DNA of 64,000 nt from Liolophura sinensis (Eukaryota; Mollusca; Polyplacophora; Chitonida; Chitonidae), in assembly GCF_032854445.1 (NCBI RefSeq), contig NC_088296.1, positions 15,427,485 through 15,491,484 of the forward strand, in the 5' to 3' direction. The translations under genes and the position numbers were made by a program. The notes under the pieces were generated by a model. The model saw only the letters and a list, made by a program, of their open reading frames with translations, was not told the origin of the DNA and made no database searches. Below, piece by piece: positions 6,266 to 9,658 of this stretch. The stretch's first letter is position 1. Each line of letters begins with the position of its first letter.

Positions 6266-6860
6266 TTACAATTTATCGTAATTTTGCCAAGAACTGGTGA
6301 CTAAATGAGAAGTTAGATGACTCTGCACACTACATCTGTAATCACACCAGGTACATTTGAATGGTTTCTCTTCAGTGTGAGTTCTGACATGTTTAGTTAG
6401 ATCACTCTGCACACTACATCTGTAATCACACCAGGTACATTTGAATGGTTTCTCTCCTGTGTGAGTTCTGACATGTTGAGTTAGATTACTCTGCACACTA
6501 CATCTGTAATCACACCAGGTACATTTGAATGGTTTCTCTGCTGTGTGAGTTGTGACATGTCTAGTTAGAATACTCTGCCTACTACATCTGTAATCACACC
6601 AGGTACATTTGAATGGTTTCTCTCCTGTGTGAGTTGTGACATGTCTAGTTAGATGACTCTGCACACTACATCTGTAATCACACCAGGTACATTTGAATGG
6701 TTTCTCTCCTGTGTGAGTTGTGACATGTTGAGTTAGATCACTCTGCACACTACATCTGTAATCACACCAGGTACATTTGAATGGTTTCTCTGCTGTGTGA
6801 GTTGTGACATGTCTAGTTAGAATACTCTGCCTACTACATCTGTAATCACACCAGGTACAT
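6266..6860 (-). CDS. Zinc-finger array segment 3 (C-terminal end) with natural stop
   Basis: In-frame fingers downstream of the third frameshift (about 6861). The last finger ends S-H-L-T-S-H-L and is followed by a short non-finger tail of about ten residues and a stop at 6266. The unique tail suggests this is the true C-terminus of the ancestral protein. The three -1 shifts add up to -3, so the frame here equals that of segment 1, but stop codons intervene between the shifts. Confidence 0.6.
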
Positions 6861-6899
6861 TTGATGGATTCTCTCCAGTGTGAGTTGTGACATGTCTAG

Positions 6900-8258
6900 T
6901 TAGAATACTCTGCACACTACATCTGTAATCACACCAGGTACATTTGATGGATTCTCTCCAGTGTGAGTTCTGACATGTTTAGTTAGATGACTCTGCACAC
7001 TACATCTGTAATCACACCAGGTACATTTGAATGGTTTCTCTCCTGTGTGAGTTCTGACATGTCTAGTTAGATCACTCTGCACACTACATCTGTAATCACA
7101 CCAGGTACATTTGAATGGTTTCTCTGCTGTGTGAGTTCTGACATGTTGAGTTAGATGACTCTGCCTACTACATCCGTATTCACACCAGGTACATTTGAAT
7201 GGTTTCTCTGCTGTGTGAGTTGTGACATGTCTAGTTAGATTACTCTGCACACTACATCTGTAATCACACCAGGTACATTTGAATGGCTTCTCTTCAGTGT
7301 GAGTTCTGACATGTGTAGTTAGATGACTCTGCACACTACATCTGTAATCACACCAGGTACATTTGAATGGCTTCTCTCCAGTGTGAGTTCTGACATGTCT
7401 AGTTAGATGACTCTGCACACAACATCTGTAATCACACCAGGTACATTTGAATGGTTTCTCTCCAGTGTGAGTTCTGACATGTCTAGTTAGATGACTCTGC
7501 ACACTACATCTGTAATCACACCAGGTACATTTGAATGGTTTCTCTCCTGTGTGAGTTCTGACATGTCTAGTTAGATCACTCTGCACACTACATCTGTAAT
7601 CACACCAGATACATTTGAATGGCTTCTCTTCTGTGTGAGTTCTGACATGTTGAGTTAGATGACTCTGCACACTACATCTGTAATCACACCAGGTACATTT
7701 GAATGGTTTCTCTCCTGTGTGAGTTCTGACATGTCTAGTTAGAACACTCTGCATACTACATCTGTAATCACACCAGGTACATTTGAATGGTTTCTCTGCT
7801 GTGTGAGTTCTGACATGTCTAGTTAGATTACTCTGAACACTACATCTGTAATCACACCAGGTACATTTGAATGGCTTCTCTTCAGTGTGAGTTCTGACAT
7901 GTTGAGTTAGATTACTCTGCACACTACATCTGTAATCACAACAGGTACATTTGAATGGCTTCTCTCCTGTGTGAGTTGTGACATGTCTAGTTAGATGACT
8001 CTGCACACTACATCTGTAATCACACCAGGTACATTTGAATGGTTTCTCTCCTGTGTGAGTTGTGACATGTTGAGTTAGATCACTCTGCACACTACATCTG
8101 TAATCACACCAGGTACATTTGAATGGTTTCTCTGCTGTGTGAGTTCTGACATGTTGAGTTAGATTACTCTGCACACTACATCTGTAATCACACCAGATAC
8201 ATTTGAATGGTTTCTCTCCTGTGTGAGTTCTGACATGTTGAGTTAGATCACTCTGCAC
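6900..8258 (-). CDS. Zinc-finger array segment 2, 15 complete fingers plus partial ones
   Basis: Open reading stretch between the frameshifts at about 8287 and 6944. It begins at a GTG codon inside a finger, so no start is implied. One finger (near 7945) has C-T-C-C in place of C-T-W-C, one (near 7160) has E-Y-G-C in place of D-Y-R-C, and one has Cys in place of Ser after Y-R-C; all keep the four zinc ligands. Helix positions 3 and 6 continue to vary (N/Q, D/Q, H/R, N/R, V/R, D/R, H/T, H/K). It ends out of frame just past 6944. Confidence 0.6.
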   Translation of the reverse strand: [452 protein letters not shown]

Positions 8259-9349
8259 ACTACATCTGTAATCACACCAGGTACATTTGATGGATTCTCT
8301 CCAGTGTGAGTTCTGACATGTCTAGTTAGATGACTCTGCACACTACATCTGTAATCACACCAGGTACATTTGAATGGCTTCTCTCCAGTGTGAGTTCTGA
8401 CATGTCTACTTAGATGACTCTGCACACTACATCTGTAATCACACCAGGTACATTTGAATGGTTTCTCTCCAGTGTGAGTTCTGACATGTTTAGTTAGATG
8501 ACTCTGCCTACTACATCTGTAATCACACCAGGTACGTTTGAATGGCTTCTCTTCAGTGTGAGTTCTGACATGTCTAGTTAGATCACTCTGCACACTACAT
8601 CTGTAATCACACCAGGTACATTTGAATGGTTTCTCTCCTGTGTGAGTTCTGACATGTTGAGTTAGATTACTCTGCACACTACATCTGTAATCACACCAGG
8701 TACATTTGAATGGTTTCTCTCCTGTGTGAGTTGTGACATGTCTAGTTAGAACACTCTGCACACTACATCTGTATTCACACCAGGTACATTTGAATGGTTT
8801 CTCTCCTGTGTGAGTTCTGACATGTCTAGTTAGAACACTCTGCATACTACATCTGTAATCACACCAGGTACATTTGAATGGTTTCTCTGCTGTGTGAGTT
8901 CTGACATGTCTAGTTAGATTACTCTGCACACTACATCTGTAATCACACCAGGTACATTTGAATGGCTTCTCTTCAGTGTGAGTTCTGACATGTCTAGTTA
9001 GATTACTCTGCACACTACATCTGTAATCACACCAGGTACATTTGAATGGCTTCTCTCCTGTGTGAGTTCTGACATGTTGAGTTAGTTGACTCTGCACACT
9101 ACATCTGTAATCACACCAAGTACATTTGAATGGTTTCTCTCCAGCGTGAGTTCTGACATGTTTAGTTAGAATACTCTGCCTACTACATCTGTAATCACAC
9201 CAAGTACATTTGAATGGTTTCTCTCCAGTGTGAGTTCTGACATGTTTAGTTAGATCACTCTGCACACTACATCTGTAATCACACCAGGTACATTTGAATG
9301 GCTTCTCTCCAGTGTGAGTTCTGACATGTCTAGTTAGATTACTCTGCAC
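8243..9349 (-). CDS. Zinc-finger array segment 1 (N-terminal side), 12 complete fingers plus a partial one
   Basis: This is the open segment upstream of the first frameshift. Its apparent first residue is a GTG (the Val of C-S-V-Q-S), not an ATG, so it is an interior stretch and not a true start. Finger 10, near 8535, has lost its first zinc-binding Cys (F-K-R-T-W-C, codon TGT to CGT). The block of three fingers with position-3/6 residues N/R, N/R and V/R and linkers E, A and G recurs in the next segment, 13 units (1,092 bp) away, which points to block duplication. Translation ends shortly after the deletion at about 8287. Confidence 0.6.
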   Translation of the reverse strand: [368 protein letters not shown]

Positions 9350-9658
9350 ACTACATCTGTAATTACACCAGGTACAGTTAATTTAACAACTTAGAATGAA
9401 AACTAGGAAGTAGTAATTTTTCAGTTTGTTACTTTAGGGACTGGAAATCTGATCGATTCATGCAGACAAACTTTATGTGTATTTTATCCCCATATGTGAG
9501 CCTGAATAATAAAAAAAAGTAATTCTGGTGTGGATATAAATTTATTGTGGTGACATCATTGAAACTGGCCGCTTTCACTCTGCTACCATGGAAACCTGAT
9601 ATCTGATCAAACAACCAGAGTTTAACAGGGAACCTGGCTAGTAGACTTCAATTCTGTG

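Follow-up and report, generated by a model that had tools for sequence, protein, structure and literature searches.

PRDM9-type genes choose the sites of recombination in mammals. Prdm9 genes whose fingers undergo concerted evolution are described, in passages of Oliver et al. 2009 (PMC2779102), from Lottia gigantea (23 fingers), Capitella and Nematostella. The same passages place selection in Nematostella at helix positions -1, 3 and 6, and the case for positive selection is there judged weaker in animals other than fish, sea anemone, rodents and primates. In vertebrates, according to excerpts of PMC5519329 and PMC8892340, such an array signature accompanies PRDM9-directed recombination; Table 1 of the former gives contact shares of 0.33-1.0 for PRDM9 with KRAB, SSXRD and SET domains and of 0.16-0.33 for SET-only forms. 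A bivalve PRDM9 with 10 fingers appears in part of PMC10451705, and an extract of PMC4874674 deals with disrupted arrays of the PRDM9 family, ruminant PRDM7 being described and dog PRDM9 mentioned. Here we analysed a stretch of 64,000 bp from the mollusc Liolophura sinensis (the window; C2:15427485-15491484, on contig 2 of the 609-Mb assembly) that holds an array of 37 tandem C2H2 zinc-finger units. With a probability of about 0.82, we regard this array as a detached, decayed and non-coding relative of a PRDM9-type array located on this contig as well, at a distance of ~221 kb.

Unit extraction placed the array at 6272-9376 on the minus strand, with unit 1 at the high-coordinate end. The units are 84 bp long, or 83 bp in three of them (units 13, 29 and 30), and Tandem Repeats Finder (TRF) gave a period of 84, 36.5 copies and 93% matches. 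Pfam C2H2 matches were obtained in all three open frames of the array. Units 1-36 are whole fingers with a mean pairwise identity of 93.5% and four identical pairs. Unit 37 (6272-6355) matches in 58 of 84 bases, 44 of these within the first 45, so that the array's 3′ edge lies inside the helix and the second zinc-binding histidine is absent. A first-pass annotation had reported about 37 near-identical fingers at 6266..9400; number and likeness were borne out, the span is slightly narrower and the last unit is incomplete, and the three frame-breaking 83-bp units had been missed. Similarity to the unit sets in sharply with the first cysteine of unit 1. No higher-order repeat structure was found in the array, the best offset identity being matched by 407 of 2000 shuffles.

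Helix position -1 is V in 29, R in 5 and M in 2 of units 1-36, while position 3 is H (11), N (9), D (8), I (4), V (3) or Q (1) and position 6 is R (20), Q (10), K (5) or T (1), with S in unit 37. These are the residues that had been listed before, and together they form a pool of 17 contact triplets. Nei-Gojobori diversity, calculated without unit 37 and the three frameshifted codons, was piN (nonsynonymous) 0.338 and piS (synonymous) 0.115 at the contact codons (-1, 3 and 6), against piN 0.028 and piS 0.068 at the remaining 25 codons. Contact codons and synonymous sites are thus not equally diverse. The triple -1/3/6 is the most amino-acid-diverse of all 3276 codon triples. Distinct amino-acid changes, tallied by hand from the per-codon diversity table, amounted to 1.40 per site at contact codons versus 0.214 elsewhere (binomial P 5e-5); within the scaffold, amino-acid (0.214) and silent (0.210) changes per site were equal. 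The contact share of amino-acid diversity, a statistic modelled on the description in an excerpt of Baker et al. 2017 (PMC5519329), was 0.509 over 28 codons. The earlier wording, that the array is homogenised except at its contact residues, is too strong: -1/3/6 hold 51% of the diversity, linker codon 23 (G/A/E) varies about like -1, and codon 19 (R/T) varies somewhat less.

Searches of the species' own genome, in which only the best candidates were scored, led to a single close relative. Among the best 150 of 758 matches of a three-finger protein query, identity above 85% was reached only at the window array itself and at C2:15658058-15659011 (plus strand), within an open frame of 488 amino acids; the next relatives, on contig 12, reached at most 82%. 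With a full 168-base DNA query, identity of at least 92% was found, among the matches listed, only at the window array and at C2:15658061-15658984, the next places being at or below 85% apart from a 55-base piece on contig 12 at 95%. The closest fingers outside contig 2 among the matches listed stand in open zinc-finger frames at C12:3.52-3.55, 4.28 and 4.78 Mb (L010-L014). Several of these frames carry repeated N-terminal segments such as CSPMTFKEEPLFTADENGC, and no match to a PRDM9-type SET was found in these five loci.

The relative on contig 2, here called the parent locus, spans C2:15650859-15659125 and reads, from its sequence, as an open PRDM9-type gene. Its exon borders were read by eye in two stretches, L009 and L019, with AG and GT where expected. 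In order, we found an exon encoding a KRAB-like peptide (L019:7860-8043), an exon with a DSDEEWTP segment (L019:8729-8860), exons for the region before SET (L009 about 1301-1436 and 2263-2339), two exons for the PR/SET domain (L009:3367-3567 and 4055-4340) and a single open 3′ exon in which a spacer separates a lone finger from the 12 fingers of the array (L009:4736-6126). The zinc knuckle in L009 2263-2339 matched Pfam Zn_ribbon_PRDM4 with 24.9 bits, just below the cut-off of 25.8. The PR/SET domain matched PRDM2_PR (5.5e-45) and SET (9.3e-13) in Pfam, and in the PDB it was closest to PRDM9, three PRDM9 sequences (2e-33 to 5e-33) ranking ahead of PRDM14 (1e-26) and PRDM1 (9e-24). Compared with a human PRDM9 sequence, the KRAB-like exon joined to the next exon matched over 92 amino acids at 40% (65.9 bits), and the stretch containing the human SSXRD region matched over 48 amino acids at 33%. 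The contact triplets of the parent array are VYR, QNQ, VNQ, VNQ, RVQ, VHQ, QAK, VTQ, VTQ, RNQ and VNQ, followed by a diverged last finger, and the contact triple ranks first among 680 triples of non-ligand positions. The PRDM9-like pattern had been rightly recognised in the first-pass annotation, and the tie is even closer than could be seen there: a PRDM9-type gene on this very contig has the array exon that is the nearest relative found.

A second SET domain with PRDM9 as its nearest PDB entry lies at C8:41903399-41904432 (L022/L055). It is preceded by weak matches to the pre-SET knuckle and the EWTP segment, and could possibly be an array-less PRDM9 paralogue, as far as its sequence tells. 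As a source of the window array this locus was rejected, no finger being present in same-strand frames of at least 40 codons within 30 kb. A search for zf-CW, aimed at partners of the ZCWPW1/2 type, gave six genomic loci, of which two contain an internal stop.

The two arrays on contig 2 are very similar in their units. Unit 4 of the parent array has exactly the DNA sequence of units 9 and 35 of the window array. With the diverged last parent finger left out (11 parent units), diversity was 0.063 within the window array, 0.055 within the parent array and 0.069 between them, which amounts to a net divergence of 0.96% overall and 0.32% outside contact codons. Still, units cluster by array: the nearest neighbour belonged to the same array at a frequency of 0.81, equalled in 7 of 1000 label shuffles. 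Alleles seen only in the window array include codon 22 ACT (14/36 units versus 0/11), codon 19 ACA (9/36 versus 0/11) and D, I and Q at helix position 3, while Y, A and T at position 3 and Q at -1 are confined to the parent array. The window array is also about three times as long. Unit identity and low net divergence together with clustering by array therefore point to a recent separation, or to exchange until recently; judging from these sequences, free exchange between the arrays at present is unlikely.

These data also bear on the idea of a store: the window array, tolerant of frameshifts, would bank PRDM9 finger variants, and gene conversion would carry new helices from it into the live array of the same chromosome. 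The recombination map could then change faster than mutation within 12 fingers permits. A unit identical in both arrays, 0.3% net divergence outside contact codons and the large pool of triplets would all suit such a store. However, the clustering by array and the absence of common window alleles from the parent do not, and recent common origin explains the identity; we hold the store to be very unlikely.

No reading frame runs through the whole window array, because three units share an 83-bp frameshifted haplotype in which a substitution is linked to a one-base deletion: unit 13 (8286-8368), unit 29 (6943-7025) and unit 30 (6860-6942), all on the minus strand like the open stretches that they delimit. 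The first stretch (8243-9382) contains fingers 1-12 and most of 13 and ends at a stop shortly past the frameshift; the second, in a different frame (6900-8321), contains the fingers of unit 14 to unit 29, and the third (6266-6895) units 31-37. Units 13, 29 and 30 differ from each other only at codons 13, 16 and 19, and only by alleles that are common elsewhere in the array. Exchange among units therefore seems to have gone on after frame loss, and we infer that the frameshifted piece, once it had arisen, spread among units by exchange. Association between sites in the array fades within ~10-20 bp, the mean excess mutual information being 0.274 bits at 1-2 bp, 0.058 at 7-12, 0.012 at 13-20, -0.010 at 21-30 and 0.034 at 31-50. 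Furthermore, 9 of 10 singletons change an amino acid, against a neutral expectation of ~0.69-0.75; among them are the first zinc-binding cysteine of unit 11 (8453-8536, minus strand), which became arginine, and the W3 residue of unit 18. Although ten changes are few, an unconstrained minisatellite would show this pattern.

An assembly artefact, in which reads that belong to the true PRDM9 array, or to a second haplotype, were misplaced or mis-corrected, has to be considered here, as repetitive arrays assemble badly and one unit is common to both arrays. Yet the parent has an array of its own, from which the window alleles codon 22 ACT and codon 19 ACA are absent, and the frameshift is a linked two-change haplotype present in three units, unlike random error. 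An artefact is in our opinion improbable.

The absence of visible SET and KRAB domains had led to the proposal that the array, if functional, would be an independent case. An independent working zinc-finger gene, for instance a transposon silencer, would have acquired a PRDM9-like array by convergence. Nearly every zinc ligand is retained, no unit contains an in-frame stop, the first open stretch offers 12 whole fingers, and contact residues vary in zinc-finger genes (ZNFs) of several species, many animal ones among them, according to part of PMC10547256. On the other hand, three frameshifts lead to stops, an in-frame stop stands two codons ahead of the first cysteine of unit 1, so that no start codon precedes the array, and the 3′ edge lies inside a finger. 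Moreover, none of the 30 minus-strand frames of at least 50 amino acids between the array and the stop of the next same-strand gene, TFIIA gamma, matched a Pfam family, and the nearest relative among the matches listed is a PRDM9-type array and not another zinc-finger gene. On the frameshifts, the missing start, the 3′ edge within a finger and the missing exons we rejected this explanation, which we consider highly unlikely. That no SET or KRAB is visible was itself confirmed, eight peptides from parental exons, those of SET and of the KRAB-like exon among them, having no match in the window better than E 0.11; the window array thus has the homogenised, contact-diverse 84-bp fingers of a PRDM9-type gene without its PR/SET and KRAB exons and without an open C-terminal array. 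The view of the array as functional and independent gave way to that of a detached relative, the three frameshifts being joined by more scaffold damage than in the parent (12/36 versus 0/11 units), a marginal contrast that is weighed below.

As controls we took 28 further loci from the three-finger match list, which is not a genome-wide survey; 22 had at least 5 clean fingers and were kept, and 6 were dropped. The contact share per 21-amino-acid finger was 0.652 in the window array and 0.640 in the parent array, compared to 0.188-0.275 in the 22 control arrays, so that the parent's share is exceptional among the C2H2 arrays examined, the window array aside. Contact share also rises with homogeneity, and we therefore looked for homogenised runs among the controls. 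Such runs were present in 5 of the 28 loci (5-8 fingers, 87-99% DNA identity). Their summed heterozygosity was 0-1.22 at contact positions versus 0-3.84 in the rest of the finger, with position 3 constant in four runs and showing one exception in the fifth, and with -1 and 6 varying in two. The corresponding values were 1.57 versus 0.96 for the parent and 1.70 versus 1.64 for the window array. Among the homogenised runs examined, only the two PRDM9-type arrays have more contact than scaffold diversity.

A plain non-coding minisatellite, with its hot columns on the contact codons by chance, could be suspected from a window full of tandem repeats, and in some of the 7 other tandem arrays of the window that were checked diversity is also concentrated in few columns (one of the 7, at 38023-38744, was excised out of register and is disregarded). 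Against a chance origin stand the rank of the contact triple, 1/3276 in the window and 1/680 in the parent, and the translation of the units into clean C2H2 fingers. With this rank and the parent locus in view we rejected a plain minisatellite as the origin and give it hardly any credence, but as a description of how the window array behaves at present the minisatellite reading may serve.

Several points weigh against a decayed relative of an intact PRDM9-type gene. In the parent, no Pfam KRAB match was obtained at E up to 5, and no SSXRD match either, although both models do reach the human stretch. The parent's first exon was not found in L009 and L019, and the exon phases show that the list also lacks one middle exon or more, between L019:8860 and L009:1301. 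Because of these misses the parent's intactness is not proven. In the window array, fingers 1-12 are all in the same frame, and splicing to a small exon upstream could make them coding. The contact share did not differ significantly between shared (8/17) and singleton (2/10) variants (Fisher P 0.23), and an old selected phase is therefore not separated statistically from a young neutral one. Lastly, the contrast in damage is marginal, and the excluded codons were the analyst's choice: outside codons 9, 10, 13, 16, 19 and 23, scaffold changes hit the 12/36 window and 0/11 parent units given above (Fisher P 0.044), and with only codons 10, 13, 16 and 23 excluded, 20/36 window and 2/11 parent units (P 0.041).

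The following course of events would account for a detached relative of the PRDM9-type array. In a working gene, either the ancestor of the window copy or the parent, fingers would have been shuffled by unequal exchange and gene conversion, and contact residues would have been driven apart by selection for new DNA targets, as in PRDM9. A fingers-only stretch may then have moved to, or stayed behind at, a site downstream of the TFIIA-gamma gene. There, minisatellite-style shuffling presumably continued, the frameshifted unit reached three places and scaffold damage accrued. By homology to PRDM9 in mammals, the parent's SET would mark chromatin at sites bound by its fingers while the contact residues turn over. 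The window array would make no product and would be a coding-derived minisatellite that keeps a record of finger variants and, in the best reading, the traces of selection that once favoured new DNA targets.

The next recognised gene on the same strand encodes TFIIA gamma (GTF2A2-like, 14864-21084, minus strand). Its pieces lie at 21049-21084, 17270-17311 and 14864-14971, with a stop after the third. The first piece was identified by Pfam as well as by a short motif, and the other two are what we take to be exons 2 and 3 from short motifs. The simplest place for 5′ exons of a finger gene would be 9.4-14.9 kb of the window. A copy of the whole gene as a pseudogene, as in PRDM7, is not seen: neither parental exons nor non-repeat parental flanks were found in the window, blastn of 30 kb around the parent giving only short repeats among its 60 best matches. 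Short dispersed repeats, mostly 70-90% alike, occur in many places of the window (near 58.0, 51.7, 49.6, 41.3 and 5.0 kb) and also between exons of the PRDM9-type locus (L019:7158-7340, 8092-8326 and 9544-9626). No convincing target-site or terminal repeat was found among the repeats flanking the array, Rfam and tRNA scans of the window found nothing, and viral contigs gave no match.

Divergently from TFIIA gamma lies a piece of a LysM-domain gene (21381-23767, plus strand), whose first exon matched LysM at E 4e-4 with 20.8 bits versus a cut-off of 20.9 and whose later exon was assigned by eye. Two inverted copies of one gene stand at 53540-55189 (minus strand), with a Pfam Death domain (8.9e-11), and at 58542-59507 (plus strand), with a shorter frame and no Pfam match. 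Minisatellites are very dense in the window (83 overlapping TRF rows), for example at 12338-13775 (19-bp unit), 38023-38744 (89-bp unit, 98% alike) and 62953-63624 (56-bp unit).

If the window array is indeed a detached relative, this genome holds a PRDM9-type gene with the array signature and, in addition, a stray array of variants that are gone from the gene, and control of hotspots by PRDM9 becomes testable in a new lineage. The data further suggest that concerted shuffling persists after coding loss; homogenised fingers alone are therefore no proof of function.

Compared with known systems, the array resembles most closely PRDM9 (Meisetz), including that of the gastropod Lottia gigantea, in its 84-bp concerted units and its diversity at -1, 3 and 6; the parent locus additionally shares a KRAB-like exon, PR/SET and a 3′ exon that combines a lone finger with an array. 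The window array differs from PRDM9 in having neither SET nor KRAB, in its frameshifts and in being three times as long as the parent's array. Tandem C2H2 arrays likewise characterise the KRAB-ZNF, FiNZ-ZNF and cephalopod C2H2 expansions treated in parts of PMC10547256 and PMC12513265. In contrast to these, no effector-domain exon was found with the window array, and the five other homogenised runs of this genome hold position 3 constant or nearly so. Ruminant PRDM7 and dog PRDM9, as far as the extract of PMC4874674 goes, likewise have PRDM9-derived finger repeats with disrupting mutations; they are disrupted gene copies, whereas the window holds fingers only, beside an open parent locus. We found no report, in the open-licence literature, of a PRDM9 array that lacks its gene but has an open locus nearby. 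New here is thus an orphan PRDM9-type array, three times the length of the gene's own, next to a locus that reads as open.

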